Below the pieces are notes generated by a model, which was given only the letters and a program-made list of their open reading frames with translations, was not told the DNA's origin and searched no databases. DNA of 31,301 nt from a virus. The stretch lies in IMG/VR virus record IMGVR_UViG_3300030103_002230, positions 1-31,301 of that record; one strand, 5' to 3'. The translations under genes and the position numbers were made by a program. Positions 14,745 to 28,269 of the stretch are shown here, in pieces (position 1 is the stretch's first letter; every line of letters starts with the position of its first letter).

Positions 14745-16133
14745 TCACATAAGGTTCTTAACTGCAACACGTCTGTAGTAACGGTTTGCATTGATGTTAA
14801 GTTTGCCGAGTTGTGCTTCGGTGCCTTCAGCGAAGGGGTTCGCAACGATACCGTAGCGAGTCTTGAAGCCAATCTTGGGTTGGAAGGTGTCCTCTCCAAC
14901 GGCGCGAACCATCTGAAGGGGAACGTATGGGCAATAGAACAGACCAGCGTCATAGGGGGAAGTACCCTTATAACCTACAACGTAGTACTGGTTGCCAGGA
15001 GTTGCGTTGGCGGAAGTCAGGTTAGCAGAATAAGGATCGATGTATACACGATACTTACCTTGCAGAACACCAGCGAAGGTGTTACCGGTGTCGTCAACGG
15101 TCAGGTTTGCATTCAGAGCAGGGGTGTAGTCGAGTACACCAGCCATGGTGAGTGCAGAAGCAACGTCAGCAGAGCAAAGGATTGTATTGCCCTTTCCTCT
15201 ACGAGTTCTTTGTGCGATAGCGTTTGCGTCTCTTTCGATCTGGAAGAGCAGACCCTTGAACTTCTCAACACTCCAGCGTCCGTTGGAGTCGATGTCAAGG
15301 TCAAATACACCAGACTGGGCGACGTTTTGTGCAGCACCCTGTTCAGCAACCTTATAGATGGTTCTGATAACTTCGCGGTTGATCTCAGCAAGAATCTCAG
15401 TGGAGAGAATATTTGCGAGTTCAGCCTCGGCGTTCAGACCGTGGATTGCTTTCAAGTCTTGTGCCAGTTCCAAGGAGTACTCAGCTTTGAGTGCTCTGGA
15501 CTTAGCGGTTACAGTGACTTTCTCGATAGAGAATGCCATCTGGTTGAACGCATTAGCATCGGCATCTCCGAGTGCTTCAGCGTTTGCTGTGGTCATACCC
15601 TGACCTACATCATATCCGAAGGAGGATGCAGATGATACGGGGTTGAGTGCAGCAGGGTTGTTGCCAGACTGGGAAGTAGTACCCATACCAGCAGCGGTGT
15701 CGGTCATTCCAGCCGTAAGGTTACGGGTGAAGTTCTGACCGGAGAATGCGGAATCGGGCTCGTCGTAGAATGCCTCGGTTCCAGACATGGACTTGTAACG
15801 GGAGCGCATCGCGAAGATGAGTCCAGTAGGTCCACTCATGGGTTGAACGCCAGCCAGATCGTAAGCGATCAGGTTAGGCATGGAGCGTCTGATCAAGGAG
15901 ATCAGAACGGGGTCGAAGTTAGAAACTCCACCATTGGAGACAGAGTTGGTAGGAGCAGCCTCACTGAGGAGGGATCCACCTGTCTCGAAGGAGGAGGACT
16001 CCTTCATGAATTTTTCCTGGTTTTCGAGCAGGACAGCGGTTACAGCCTTTCTATGGGGGTCCTTGATAGACTCAAGACCTTCGTATTCGAGAAGGGGCTT
16101 CCACTTTTCCTGCAACTGTTCGGATTGGAACAT
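14745..16133 (-). CDS. 23: Major capsid protein gp23
   Basis: Forms the hexamers of the T4-type head. The 462-residue product (T4: 521) has the conserved IRRSMPNLIAYDLAGVQPM (about 78-96) followed by SGPTGLIFAMRSRY, and a C-terminal GFKTRYGIVANPFAEG. T4 gp23 is cut by gp21 after an (I/L)-x-E motif. Here LLSE-AAPTNS places the cut after Glu58, removing a helical scaffold-like N-terminus. The mature N-terminus AAPTNSVSNGGV is nearly repeated in the protein at 27550-28269. There is a modest ribosome site (TTTAGG) but no clear late promoter directly upstream, so it may be read from the gp22 promoter. Confidence 0.98.
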   Translation of the reverse strand: MFQSEQLQEKWKPLLEYEGLESIKDPHRKAVTAVLLENQEKFMKESSSFETGGSLLSEAAPTNSVSNGGVSNFDPVLISLIRRSMPNLIAYDLAGVQPMSGPTGLIFAMRSRYKSMSGTEAFYDEPDSAFSGQNFTRNLTAGMTDTAAGMGTTSQSGNNPAALNPVSSASSFGYDVGQGMTTANAEALGDADANAFNQMAFSIEKVTVTAKSRALKAEYSLELAQDLKAIHGLNAEAELANILSTEILAEINREVIRTIYKVAEQGAAQNVAQSGVFDLDIDSNGRWSVEKFKGLLFQIERDANAIAQRTRRGKGNTILCSADVASALTMAGVLDYTPALNANLTVDDTGNTFAGVLQGKYRVYIDPYSANLTSANATPGNQYYVVGYKGTSPYDAGLFYCPYVPLQMVRAVGEDTFQPKIGFKTRYGIVANPFAEGTEAQLGKLNINANRYYRRVAVKNLM

Positions 16134-16176: not shown

Positions 16177-17280
16177 TTATTTGCTAAAAGTTCCCAGGGA
16201 TCTGAGATATGCACTCATGGTATCAGAATATTGCTGATGATCATGAGTTTCTCCCTCAGAAAGGGTTTCTGTTTTAGCAGCAGGAGCAGTCGTTCTGGAG
16301 AAGTATGACTCCTTCAGAGTCTCCAGCTTTTCACGATATTCTTCTTCACTTTCAAACTCTACACTTTCAGCAAGTGAAGCGAGCTTCTCTTTCTGAGTGG
16401 ACGCGAGTCCTTCAGAAACTTCATCAAGGATACCGTCTGCAACAGACTCACTGAGTCTGCCATTCAGAGCAATATTTTTCTCGATTTGCTCGTTGAGTTT
16501 TGTCTCCATATCATCAAGTTTTTCTACCATGCTCTCAAGCACATCATATTTTTCTTCAGGGATAGTTACATAATGTTCTTCAAAAAGACCCTTCATTCCT
16601 TCAAGGAATGATTCGGTCATTTCAGTCTTGAGACCTGCCTCAATGGCGAGTGCGTTTTCTTCAAACCACTCGTCAGAGACATACTCAAGATAAGAATCAA
16701 CACGCTCAGCGAGTGACTCTTTCGCTGCTTCAACTTCTTCAGAAAGTTTGGCAGCGTACTGTGCTTCGATTTCTTCTTTGATAGCGGCAACCTTAGAGTT
16801 GATTGCTGCCTCAAAGATAGTTTTTGCTTTTGCTTTAAAATCTTCGGAGAGTTCTTCGCCACCGAGAAGAGCATTGACATCCTCTTCCATGTCATACTCA
16901 GCAACTACTTCTTCAGTAGTCTCTTCCTCAGCGACTACCTCGTCAGTGGTTGTCTCTTCTTCTTCGATCACTGGTTCCTCTACTTGAACTTCTTCTTCCT
17001 TCATGCCACCAGGGGCAGCCTCTGCAGGCTTTGCCTTAGCATTTACTACATCTCTGACTTGCTTAAGAGTCTTACCAGGTGTTTTTAACTTGGCAGAATC
17101 ATCATCAGCTTTGTAGTTCTCAGGGGTGGGACCACCGAGATCTTCGTAAGAACCCGACTGTCCAGGAGTTGTTCCAGACAAAGAGGGCATAGGATCACCA
17201 GGTTTGGCGTTAGCGTTAGCAGCAGTTTTGGACTGCTGTGTCTTTACTTCCATTTCTTGTAATTCGTTACCACGAGACAT
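16177..17280 (-). CDS. 22: Prohead core scaffold protein gp22
   Basis: Main internal scaffold of the prohead, cut to peptides by gp21 during maturation. The 367-residue protein (T4: 269) is strongly acidic, with a disordered Pro/Gly-rich first 90 residues, a Glu/Thr-rich run at about 95-130, and a long helical, coiled-coil-prone part (about 135-330) rich in Glu, Ala and Lys. It contains many L-x-E sites suited to the gp21 protease. Position between gp21 and gp23 is the T4 order. A consensus late promoter lies 39-46 bases upstream of the start, and a ribosome site (CGGAG) precedes the ATG. Confidence 0.92.
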   Translation of the reverse strand: MSRGNELQEMEVKTQQSKTAANANAKPGDPMPSLSGTTPGQSGSYEDLGGPTPENYKADDDSAKLKTPGKTLKQVRDVVNAKAKPAEAAPGGMKEEEVQVEEPVIEEEETTTDEVVAEEETTEEVVAEYDMEEDVNALLGGEELSEDFKAKAKTIFEAAINSKVAAIKEEIEAQYAAKLSEEVEAAKESLAERVDSYLEYVSDEWFEENALAIEAGLKTEMTESFLEGMKGLFEEHYVTIPEEKYDVLESMVEKLDDMETKLNEQIEKNIALNGRLSESVADGILDEVSEGLASTQKEKLASLAESVEFESEEEYREKLETLKESYFSRTTAPAAKTETLSEGETHDHQQYSDTMSAYLRSLGTFSK

Positions 17281-17348: not shown

Positions 17349-17999
17349 TCAGATACTATTAAGGAAATCGTTGAATAAATTCAACTTCTTCTCATCAAGT
17401 TGTTTTTGTGTTGCAAGAGTGTTAATCTGCTTGTATGTTTTTTCTGCAAACTTCTCACGAAGAATGCCACCATCCCATACCCAGTCTTTTCCTTCCATGA
17501 TTCCTTCAACGAATGCATCAGGAGCAGAGGGATCAGCAACGATGTCAGCAGCAGTTGCTAACATAAAGTCGTCACCGACAACATTGACACCTTCGCGTGT
17601 CATTTTCAAAGAACCAATACCTCTAGATGAGACTCCAAGTTTGACGCCTTCATCAATGAGAGATCCTGCGATCTTACCCATAGGAGTGTTCAGGATCTTT
17701 GCTTTACCGATAAAGTTAGAACCAGACTCTTTCAGAGAAACAATCTTGTGAGATACACGATCTAAGTTGACGGTAGGACCATCAGGATGTCCAAGTTCGC
17801 CAAGTGCTCTACCTGCTTGAACATGGTTTTCGTTGTATCTTCCAACTTCACGACGAAGTGTTTCCATGGGATACATTCTACCGTTACGGTTTTTGATGTT
17901 TCCCTGAAGGAATACTCCCTCAATATAAAGTTGTTTTTTACCGCCTTTTGATTCGACAATGAATTCGACGGATTCGATTTCCTCTCTGATAAGTTTCAT
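17349..17999 (-). CDS. 21: Prohead core protease gp21
   Basis: Serine protease that matures the prohead by cutting gp22, gp23, the core proteins and itself at (I/L)-x-E sites. The 216-residue length matches T4 (212). It has YIEGVFLQGNIKNRNGRMYP near the start, the likely catalytic His71 in GELGHPDG and catalytic Ser124 or Ser125 in LGVSSRGIGS. This is the herpesvirus/T4 prohead protease fold family. The start overlaps the upstream gene's stop as TGATG. Confidence 0.96.
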   Translation of the reverse strand: MKLIREEIESVEFIVESKGGKKQLYIEGVFLQGNIKNRNGRMYPMETLRREVGRYNENHVQAGRALGELGHPDGPTVNLDRVSHKIVSLKESGSNFIGKAKILNTPMGKIAGSLIDEGVKLGVSSRGIGSLKMTREGVNVVGDDFMLATAADIVADPSAPDAFVEGIMEGKDWVWDGGILREKFAEKTYKQINTLATQKQLDEKKLNLFNDFLNSI

Positions 18000-25378: not shown

Positions 25379-26926
25379 TCAGCAATTCCAACGTCTTCTT
25401 GCTTGTCTTAACCTGCTATCTGGATCTTTTGCTGCCTTTGGAAACATTTTCATTTGACCCGCAGATCTGGCACAAAAACTTTTTCTACGTTTATCGTCCG
25501 AACTTCCTTTTTTAATTTTGGAAGGATCTTTTGTTACTGCAGTTTTTAACTTTGAACCTGGGTTTCTACGACGATACGCTTCAACACCCTTTTTAGTCAT
25601 TCCTGCACCACTATCTGTGGGACGTTTGTGACCAGACTTGACAGACATTCCCTTCATGTCATCTTCATCTAGTGTCCCCTCGGTCTTTTGAGCGACTTCT
25701 CCTGATACTGTTGCGTCATTTGCAACAGTTTCATTAATTTCTTTATCTTCTCCTGATCGCTCTTCTGCGACTTTGAGAAGTGGTTGTCCTGGTTCATAGT
25801 CTGAGACTCTGAAATACGTTAGTCTTGCGCCAGGATATACATTATTAATTTGATCTTGAACTTCTGTTCTAGAGGGAATACCTACTTTAGGGAAGAACAT
25901 TTTTATCATCATGCTCCTTCCACGGAACACAAATGTTACTTCAACAATGTTACCAATTTTTGCAGGGATTCTTACTGCTTCTTCAACCTGCTCTTTTTTA
26001 ATTTTTTCACAACGATTGTAGGTTTTACCGAAGAGTTTTTGGGTTCCTACTTTTTTGTAACCCTTCCAGCACTTTTTTGCTTCTGCTAACTCCTCTCTCC
26101 AGTTAGAAAATTCTTCTTTTTTGGTGCTATTTCCCCAATTGGCTGCACCTACCTTACGACACTTGACTAGTGCTCCCGACGCATACGCACTTGGCCAAAC
26201 GGAATAACGAGACTTAACTTTATGGTAACAGGCATCTTTAGTTCCACTGCCTTTACCCTTTTTATCCGAACCCTCTGAAATGCCAGCTTTTCTGAGTCTT
26301 TTTGCTTGACTCTTATGCATTTCAACTGCTTTGTCTAATTCTTTTGCAATACCCTTTACATTTTTAGGGTGATCTTTTCCTTCTTTCATTGACTTCTTCC
26401 GAGGGCTATCGGTACTTACATAGGTTGGTTTAGCAGCACCAGATTTTTGTGGTTGTCCTGGATCTGCTTTTCTTTTTCTTCTCTGTGCAGACTTCCTTTC
26501 GGCGTCTGTCATAGATGCTCTTTTTGCTGATGATACGCACTTTGGCGTGCTCTTTTGTCCGGGTTGCCTGGCACAGGGTTTTCCTGATACAACTTGAACC
26601 CATCCAGGTTTTCCACCCTTAGAGCGAGAACCTTTAAACCAATTGCGTAACGTACCCTCAGTATGAACTACCTCTTCTCCCATGCCTCCGCCGTTGGATC
26701 CACCATTGCCACTCCCACCCCCATTACCACCATTGCCATTACCATTACCAGAAGAAACACTACCATTGCCGTTACCATTTCCATTACCATTACCATTACC
26801 GTTGCCATTCCCATTTTTAGGTTTGGCTGCCAGCATACCTCTTCCACCGATATAATAACCGGATGGAATCTTCTTACATTTTTTATCGGTGAAACAGTAA
26901 TACTGTCCGGGAGGACACTTTTTCAT
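25379..26926 (-). CDS. Basic multi-module protein with Asn-Gly repeat, probably virion-associated
   Basis: A 515-residue, strongly basic protein with no T4 counterpart. Its parts are: a short Cys motif CPPGQYYCFTDKKC (4-17); an Asn-Gly/Gly-rich linker (38-82); a basic module with GTLRNWFKGSRSKGGKPGW (91-109) and two cysteines; a second module with ACYHKVKSRYSVWPSAYASG (232-251) and CRKVGAANWG; FSNWREELAEAKKC (273-286); a small globular part (about 318-385); and a C-terminal module with YRRRNPGSKL, RRKSFCARSAGQMKMFPKAA and ending RRRWNC. The second module and the last one resemble DUF5872 and DUF6321, families I associate with marine phages and giant viruses. DNA binding inside the head is a reasonable guess from charge and late context. 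Confidence 0.8.
   Translation of the reverse strand: MKKCPPGQYYCFTDKKCKKIPSGYYIGGRGMLAAKPKNGNGNGNGNGNGNGNGNGSVSSGNGNGNGGNGGGSGNGGSNGGGMGEEVVHTEGTLRNWFKGSRSKGGKPGWVQVVSGKPCARQPGQKSTPKCVSSAKRASMTDAERKSAQRRKRKADPGQPQKSGAAKPTYVSTDSPRKKSMKEGKDHPKNVKGIAKELDKAVEMHKSQAKRLRKAGISEGSDKKGKGSGTKDACYHKVKSRYSVWPSAYASGALVKCRKVGAANWGNSTKKEEFSNWREELAEAKKCWKGYKKVGTQKLFGKTYNRCEKIKKEQVEEAVRIPAKIGNIVEVTFVFRGRSMMIKMFFPKVGIPSRTEVQDQINNVYPGARLTYFRVSDYEPGQPLLKVAEERSGEDKEINETVANDATVSGEVAQKTEGTLDEDDMKGMSVKSGHKRPTDSGAGMTKKGVEAYRRRNPGSKLKTAVTKDPSKIKKGSSDDKRRKSFCARSAGQMKMFPKAAKDPDSRLRQARRRWNC
26681..26815 (-). repeat. Asn-Gly coding repeat with nine 6-base units
   Basis: The stretch 26762-26815 is nine successive AAYGGN units encoding nine Asn-Gly pairs. 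It is followed to 26681 by looser Gly/Asn/Ser repeats. The units vary mainly at third codon positions, so the peptide rather than the DNA repeat appears to be conserved, and length changes in steps of six bases would keep the frame. It makes a flexible linker between the N-terminal Cys motif and the first basic module. Confidence 0.85.
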
Positions 26927-26949
26927 AAGAAACCAGTAGTCTCATCTAT

Positions 26950-26956
26950 TATTTAG
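26950..26956 (-). promoter_or_regulatory. CTAAATA late promoter before the 515-residue gene
   Basis: CTAAATA on the minus strand overlaps the TAA stop of the preceding gene and lies 24 bases upstream of the ATG at 26926. It would also serve gp17, whose gene follows after 7 bases. Confidence 0.5.
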
Positions 26957-27531
26957 CAATCATTGAATACTGAACCGACTCTAGAACCTGCTTCTTCACC
27001 TGCCCTCTGACCAAGTAAGTTTGCCCATCCTGCAACTAACCATCCAACATAAGGAATGTTCATAACTGCAGGTGCAATAAGTCCTGTGCTAATTGCGGTT
27101 CCTGCCATTGCACCTTGTGACCGTGCTCCAGCGTCCGCCACGATGCACTCTACGTTTTTCGCAGACTTTCCCTCGCCTGGCAAAGAGGCACCTCCCATGT
27201 TCCTCACACCTTCCATAGTATATTGATCCGTTCGATATTCATTGCGATCCTCATAATTATTACCACCGAAGAAACCACTTTTACTTTTAGTGAGGTCTAG
27301 TGATCTCTGCGACTCAAGAATAGCAGGATCGTTTGCTTTATATTCAATTTTATATCCATGTTTCCCTGCTTCAATCTTATATGAAGAGTAAGGAGTTCCG
27401 CTTGGGATGTTGATAGTTGGGACCTGAATGACGCGCTCAGGAGTTTGCCTAATCAAATGACCTAAGACACCGATATGTGCTACACCAATCAATGCACCTA
27501 GCCCAATAGTTGCAATCTTAAGAGGTTTCAT
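26953..27531 (-). CDS. Membrane-associated protein of unknown function
   Basis: A 192-residue protein with a hydrophobic N-terminal helix (about 5-26, rich in I, G, A, L) that could be a signal anchor. A polar middle (about 30-125) follows. The C-terminal part is Gly/Ala-rich and hydrophobic (about 137-185) with small residues spaced as in a glycine zipper, for example IPYVGWLVAGWANLL and QRAGEEAGSRVG. There is one Cys at about 129 and one at the very end. It has no T4 counterpart that I recognise. A protein with these features in a virion cluster might act at the host membrane during entry, but this is inference. AGGTG precedes the ATG. Confidence 0.75.
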   Translation of the reverse strand: MKPLKIATIGLGALIGVAHIGVLGHLIRQTPERVIQVPTINIPSGTPYSSYKIEAGKHGYKIEYKANDPAILESQRSLDLTKSKSGFFGGNNYEDRNEYRTDQYTMEGVRNMGGASLPGEGKSAKNVECIVADAGARSQGAMAGTAISTGLIAPAVMNIPYVGWLVAGWANLLGQRAGEEAGSRVGSVFNDC

Positions 27532-27549: not shown

Positions 27550-28269
27550 TTACTTTGCTCTCTTCTTCTTTCCCGCACAATGTGCTTTTTGAGAAAAACC
27601 TTTTGGGTTAGAGCAATCAATACTGCGCTTGTATTTAGCACTCCAACCTTCTCTCATCGCTTTTGTTTTCTTTTTCATCATATTAATGTACTTTCTATAG
27701 ACTGCTGCCTCTGCAGTTTTGCCCATTTCTCTTGCTCTTTGTTCCATGGCAACTGCTGCTTGGATCTTGTGAGCATGTGATCTTGAGGAGTTTCTAATCT
27801 TACTTACAGACTCTTTTGCTTTAGCGACGTTCTTAAAACCTAGACCATGAATAGTTCCTTTAGGGTCTTCATCGGTGTAGAGGTCAGAGTGTTTCTTTGA
27901 CTTAGCAGGTTGTCCTTTTTTTCTAGGAATTCTAGGGTTCGTTTCTTCTTTGTAGAATTTATCAAAGTTTGAACGGATACGTTTGATAGTATTATTATCC
28001 ATCAACTGTGTATATTCTTTAGATGCATGAACCATAGAGTCAATACTAGGTCCATCTCCATCACTGTTACTCAGTGAAAGTTTTAAAACGGGGTATATAT
28101 TTGAAAATCTATATCTTGCCTCACCAGGTTCTGCTGGTGTTTGATAATCTTGAGTGAGATCGTCATCATCCTCATTTTTAAACAAATAAGGAGTATATTC
28201 CGCCACTCCCCCGTCAGTAACGGAGTTAGTGGGTGCTGCTTCTTTAATAAACTCCTTAAAAGTTTTCAT
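27550..28269 (-). CDS. Probable internal head protein with capsid-targeting sequence
   Basis: A 239-residue protein with a very basic second half. The first residues, MKTFKEFIKEA, match the capsid-targeting sequence of T4 internal proteins (MKTYQEFIAEA), which sends proteins into the prohead core and is cut off by gp21 after the (I/L)-x-E. The predicted cut after Glu10 leaves AAPTNSVTDGGV, nearly the mature N-terminus of gp23. An acidic patch (NEDDDDLTQD) is followed by Lys/Arg-rich helices. The C-terminal end SIDCSNPKGFSQKAHCAGKK carries two cysteines and resembles a tail motif I recall in other marine phage proteins. Its start overlaps the previous stop as ATGA. I infer that it is packaged with DNA and injected. 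Confidence 0.82.
   Translation of the reverse strand: MKTFKEFIKEAAPTNSVTDGGVAEYTPYLFKNEDDDDLTQDYQTPAEPGEARYRFSNIYPVLKLSLSNSDGDGPSIDSMVHASKEYTQLMDNNTIKRIRSNFDKFYKEETNPRIPRKKGQPAKSKKHSDLYTDEDPKGTIHGLGFKNVAKAKESVSKIRNSSRSHAHKIQAAVAMEQRAREMGKTAEAAVYRKYINMMKKKTKAMREGWSAKYKRSIDCSNPKGFSQKAHCAGKKKRAK

Follow-up and report, generated by a model that had tools for sequence, protein, structure and literature searches.

The window analysed here is the whole stretch of DNA in the IMG/VR virus record IMGVR_UViG_3300030103_002230, which is 31,301 bases long and carries genes of the gp17, gp18, gp21, gp22 and gp23 types. Its relatives are Kyanoviridae, and it apparently belongs to a marine T4-like phage, a cyanophage. 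The head genes on its minus strand include those for the major capsid protein gp23 (14745..16133; Pfam Gp23, E=1.2e-150), the scaffold gp22 (16177..17280; T4_CASP, E=9.7e-83) and the prohead protease gp21 (17349..17999; Peptidase_S77, E=8.5e-35). The gene considered in this study, P0001 (27550..28269, minus strand), encodes a mosaic protein of 239 amino acids and is placed between tail-fibre genes and gp17, outside the gp20-gp23 cluster. Its start is secure, because the start codon is the sole in-frame ATG downstream of the preceding stop and overlaps, as ATGA, the stop codon of the upstream gene, which is of the tail-fibre type. Cyanophage genomes have a known hot spot for genes between gp16 and gp17 (PMC3037559), so that the position of P0001 says little about its function.

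P0001 begins with MKTFKEFIKEAAPTNSVTDGGVAEYTP, and its first ten residues, MKTFKEFIKE (28240..28269, minus strand), form a T4-type capsid-targeting sequence (CTS) that ends in a gp21-type I-x-E/A site (a slash marks the predicted cut here and below). A preliminary description of this DNA had reported a match to the T4 CTS at 8 of 11 positions with the cut site intact, and this is borne out: residues 1-11, MKTFKEFIKEA, share 8/11 positions with the T4 sequence MKTYQEFIAEA as quoted there, and P0001 is the top CTS match among 731 ORFs of at least 70 aa in the window, S-SCSM1 and S-SM2. Under a column-shuffled null, matches at 8/11 or more positions are expected at about 7e-7 per ORF. In the T4 CTS, targeting depends on positions 4 and 7, and processing on positions 8 and 10 (PMC9026906). 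The P0001 leader has F4 and F7 as its key targeting residues and carries the gp21 motif L/I-x-E as I8-K9-E10/A11, and the window also encodes gp21. T4 has internal proteins with such leaders, and the P0001 leader was linked to T4-like internal head proteins via phage records and phrog_2667 ('internal head protein'), whose match to P0001 is confined to residues 1-14 (E=0.072). The mature part has no similarity to T4 IPI-IPIII, so that the leader is the sole link, in agreement with the earlier characterization of P0001 as a non-T4 protein.

The protein is a mosaic in which an acidic, head-related module A is followed by two basic modules, B and C, known from other cyanophage genes. It has a net charge of +18 and a pI of 9.7; residues 11-109 are acidic, whereas residues 110-205 carry +16 and residues 206-239 carry +9, which confirms the basic C-terminus already pointed out. 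The acidic module A core (residues 31-109; 27943..28179, minus strand; alignments A1 and A2) defines the homologue family, which corresponds to T4-GC 1207 in S-SM2. In alignment A1, QDYQTP and P-V-x-K...ID-x-M-V-x-A-S-K are invariant. A profile search of module A against the PDB gave nothing significant, with T7-type portals matching at E about 0.09. The motif LFP-x8-DYQTP (window 28130-28190, minus strand), which is typical of module A homologues, also occurs in T7-type portals with equal spacing, a likeness that may be due to chance or borrowing. The AlphaFold2 model of P0001, built from 34 aligned sequences, is poor, with a mean pLDDT of 47. A Pfam YL1 match (E=0.0037, under the curated cut-off) was dropped as probably charge-driven.

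Module B (residues 110-205; 27655..27942, minus strand) is strongly basic and elsewhere forms the N-terminal part of the phrog_727/T4-GC119 protein. The match to phrog_727 (E=7.8e-7) covers only profile positions 3-94 of 450, so that P0001 holds one module and is no full member of that family. Module B opens a gene of its own in S-SM2 (SSM2_109), Bellamy (123) and SynMITS9220M01_097. In the window, the remainder of the phrog_727/DUF6321 protein lies at 25379..26926 (minus strand) and is separated from module B by a phrog_605 gene (26953-27531), which stands between this remainder and P0001. The phrog_727 protein is thus seemingly split at 25379-27531 (minus strand), and its remainder has a long NGNGNG repeat linker. 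Relatives of phrog_727 were found in 396 phage records; the S-SCSM1 homologue gp029 is annotated as 'virion protein' but is without module B. Module C (residues 206-239; 27553..27654, minus strand) is a basic Cys/His module that contains GWSAKYKRSIDCSNPKGFSQKAHCAGKKK and exists in SynMITS9220M01_096 and Bellamy 122 as a stand-alone mini-gene whose leader is MK[TS]FKQFQE.

The homologue set, composed of relatives from viral contigs, comprises 63 distinct N-termini: 39 with a CTS-type leader, 17 with another leader, six without a leader and one truncated. All CTS-type members have F/L/Y at position 4, F/Y/L at position 7, I/L/M at position 8 and E at position 10. In all 17 members whose leader is of another type, a hydrophobic-x-E cut site is retained and P-T-N comes next, the P3 residue being L or I in 16 and V in one. 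The six leaderless N-termini have no cut site either, and still retain the distal GP-x-AGFD part of the segment described below. The cut site and what lies downstream of it are therefore better conserved than the leader type. The preliminary description had held that homologues lacking the motif would speak against its interpretation; they do occur, although those with another leader have the same cut. Its reading of P0001 as an internal head protein stands as far as a capsid-targeting, putatively gp21-cleavable leader is found on a cyanophage-type protein and conserved in most homologues. The further proposal of delivery into the host, with an anti-defence or takeover function, gains no specific support, in view of the capsid likeness described next and of basic modules without an effector signature.

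Besides the mosaic build, the earlier account had missed the likeness of residues 11-27 to the gp23 encoded at 14745-16133. These residues, AAPTNSVTDGGVAEYTP (28189..28239, minus strand), match the mature N-terminus of the phage's own gp23, namely residues 59-75, AAPTNSVSNGGVSNFDP (15909..15959, minus strand), which follow the predicted cut LSE/A. At the cut, the pair reads LLSE/AAPTNSVSNGGVSNFDP in gp23 and FIKE/AAPTNSVTDGGVAEYTP in P0001, with 11/17 residues identical, no gaps and rank 1 among 91 gp23 N-termini. The corresponding pair in S-SM2 reads IAE/QPTNAVGNGGYTSSGGQTVAGFDP in gp23 and LKE/TPTNSVGNGGYTSAGGQTVAGYDT in SSM2_108, with predicted mature starts QPTNAVGNGGYTSSGG and TPTNSVGNGGYTSAGG, respectively. 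Alignment to T4 gp23 places the matched segment at the N-fist, T4 residues 66-91. The N-fist touches four subunits and becomes ordered during expansion (PMC9958956); N-fists that face the portal are disordered (PMC7136217). When the family profile A1 was run on 23 capsid-bearing contigs in which the family gene had not been seen, the hits were confined to seven ORFs of gp23 size (E 7.8e-6 to 2.5e-3, profile positions within 1-38), and in S-SM2 the profile finds gp23 at E=0.006. At the level of sequence, these searches and alignments establish the likeness of the post-cut segment to the gp23 N-fist. In gp23 of marine T4-like phages (L159-L238), the N-fist segment is itself hypervariable in length and sequence, and in 10 genomes it does not follow the relatedness of the gp23 core (r=-0.01), which suggests swapping or strong diversifying selection.

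Whether the segment follows each phage's own gp23 was addressed with 11 genomes holding both genes. Mean similarity is 0.53 to the own gp23 and 0.29 to the others (permutation p=4e-6), and the segment lengths of family member and own gp23 correlate at r=0.86, with four exact matches. Identities to the own gp23 reach 22/27 in G041, 19/24 in S-SM2, 12/16 in G010 and 11/17 in the window, and in five genomes the own gp23 is first or second among 91. A rule that each homologue matches its own gp23 fails, however, in G021 (rank 84 of 91), G019 (rank 34) and the leaderless G090 (rank 36), and the match is only moderate in AG-345-L05 (rank 11 of 92). With relatedness controlled in a partial Mantel test, the association is modest (r=0.35, p=0.026, 11 genomes), and when the own gp23 is compared with those of the five nearest capsid relatives, it is the best match in 4/11 genomes, which is not significant (p=0.096). 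The window and G010 have gp23 cores that are 92% identical, yet their N-fists are different, and their family members show parallel differences. For gp23 and the P0001-type gene, recent gene conversion was rejected, as synonymous codons are randomized: P0001 and gp23 of the window use the identical codon at 2/11 shared residues, and five well-matched pairs do so at 27/81 shared residues, against 31.3 expected at random. Since codon sharing is about random, the likeness to the own gp23 is kept at the protein level and is not due to recent recombination. From these sequence comparisons, co-evolution of the N-fist-like segment with the phage's own capsid appears likely but is not settled.

CTS-type leaders also occur on other cyanophage proteins, among which NMNAT serves as a positive control for the leader. 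The virion proteome of S-SCSM1 determined by mass spectrometry comprises 45 proteins (PMC9602691), and the number of CDS labelled virion protein in the S-SCSM1 record is similar, from which we infer that the label means 'detected'. The NMNAT/cytidylyltransferase of S-SCSM1 (L075:39420-40649), which bears this label, starts with MKSFLQFLKEAAE, and the NMNAT/cytidylyltransferase of S-SM2 (record position 130761) carries MKSFFQFLSEAQ. A T4-type leader on cyanophage NMNAT may account for its packaging in virions, and the same kind of leader on two NMNAT copies may explain the repeated detection of NMNAT in cyanophage virions. The N-fist-like segment is absent from NMNAT and from S-SCSM1 gp030, both of which carry a CTS. 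For P0001 or a homologue, no mass spectrometry or proteome listing was found in the literature, and no annotated T4-GC 1207 gene was found in the gp16-gp17 region of S-SM1; the remark 'similar to Synechococcus phage S-SM1 protein' in the S-SM2 record may mark detected proteins.

Similar motifs were also seen at C-termini. For example, the virion-labelled S-SCSM1 gp279 (L075:42227-42436) ends in KKKRTFKEFLEYIE, L020 (5962-6714) ends in KKKTFKEFIENI, leaderless homologues (L043, L045) end in KKKFKDFMLETELRR or similar, and such a motif is present in an S-SM2 ORF ending at 133877; these could possibly be C-terminal targeting tags. In addition, a second cut-site-like segment, KEEVAAAPTNNVGGGAIAGTAPAGDDPPV, is fused together with a basic tail to MD-type homologues (C-termini of L047-L067). 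A segment of this type exists as a separate 74-aa ORF in S-SM2 (record position 135136), where it has no close likeness to S-SM2 gp23.

We consider it rather probable that P0001 is a head protein processed by gp21, and that its mature N-terminus copies the gp23 N-fist. Judging from the conserved motif and from knowledge of T4, the 10-residue leader would bring P0001 into the prohead core with gp22, its predicted partner, and gp21, the predicted cutting enzyme, would then cut at the conserved site after E10, exposing AAPTNSV...; both steps are assigned high confidence. What follows is more tentative. The N-fist copy, its function being read from similarity, might dock at N-fist sites of the gp23 lattice while the lattice expands, candidates being vacant sites at the vertices or next to the portal; docking of this kind is conceivable but somewhat doubtful. 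The basic modules B and C could, given their charge, stay inside on the packaged DNA, which would make P0001 an inner cement or a DNA-to-wall tether, and this last step is more doubtful still. Taken as a whole, the picture of a head protein that mimics the N-fist of its own capsid and ties DNA to the shell, with hypervariable N-termini co-evolving at the protein level, is offered as a tentative proposal. A structural or DNA-contacting role in the head is preferred because of the N-fist likeness and because the basic modules reside on phrog_727 proteins and mini-genes without an effector signature.

An injected effector of the T4 IP kind, packaged by its CTS, released by gp21 and ejected with the DNA for anti-defence or takeover, would fit a leader type equal to that of IPII and IPIII and a protein that is basic and small enough; T4 IPI is a precedent, being an injected restriction inhibitor (PMC9026906), and a CTS-bearing cyanophage NMNAT is labelled virion protein. 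We regard it as unlikely, however, since the mature N-terminus matches a capsid protein and no effector, the module A core is highly conserved (QDYQTP, ID-x-MV-x-ASK), unlike the fast-evolving IPs, module B belongs to the phrog_727 protein with its relatives in 396 phage records, and a Pfam search found no effector or enzyme domain in P0001. A role as a tail or tail-fibre accessory protein with a coincidental CTS likeness is highly improbable: the gene does lie directly behind tail-fibre-type genes with a start-stop overlap, but in a known hot spot for cyanophage genes (PMC3037559), while CTS and cut site are kept throughout the family and the protein resembles the gp23 N-fist.

Two further explanations concern the segment itself. 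If it were an extended gp21 substrate cassette, on which substrates converge with no lattice docking, one would understand why the likeness begins exactly at the cut site and why P-T-N after the cut is common to many homologues and gp23s. But T4 gp21 requires only L/I-x-E (PMC9026906), NMNAT and S-SCSM1 gp030 are CTS proteins of the same phages without the segment, the match spans 17-30 residues at similar length, and leaderless homologues keep the distal GP-x-AGFD with no cut site, so that we judge a cassette quite improbable. Vertical inheritance alone would mean that a gp23 5' fragment was fused to another gene long ago and that the likeness to the own gp23 reflects phage relatedness; this is likewise judged unlikely. 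The mismatches to the own gp23 in some genomes and the weakness of the relatedness controls are in its favour, whereas the independence of the gp23 segment from core relatedness and the parallel differences between the window and G010 argue against it.

If the proposal of an N-fist-copying, gp21-processed head protein is true, it would have several implications. Of the T4 proteins, cyanomyoviruses lack gp24, which is a vertex protein, as well as gp67 and gp68, which belong to the core (PMC2984593), and P0001 would be a candidate for the missing cement or vertex function. It would also represent a new way of anchoring cargo on a T4-like shell, and the combination of a leader with the N-fist of the own capsid would provide a sequence rule to spot head-internal proteins among the 'hypothetical' genes of marine phages. 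In the literature, within limited open-access coverage, no non-capsid protein with the N-fist of its own capsid was found.

Among known systems, T4 IPII and IPIII share with P0001 a 10-residue leader in which residues 4 and 7 are the key ones, residue 8 is hydrophobic and residue 10 is E, a predicted gp21 cut before Ala, and the nature of a small basic protein, but P0001 differs from them in that its mature part consists of an N-fist copy, an acidic conserved core and a modular basic tail. The N-fist of gp23* (T4 66-91) likewise lies directly after the gp21 cut and is similar in sequence and length to the P0001 segment, which, however, sits on another protein that has no capsid fold region. 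A further counterpart is the hypothetical protein SSM2_108 of S-SM2 (T4-GC 1207), which has module A, a leader, a cut site, an N-fist like that of its own gp23 and module C, but not module B, which opens the adjacent SSM2_109 (T4-GC 119, phrog_727). The phrog_727/T4-GC119/DUF6321 protein is thus the supplier of module B, and in the window it is split, with its N-terminal segment fused to module A.
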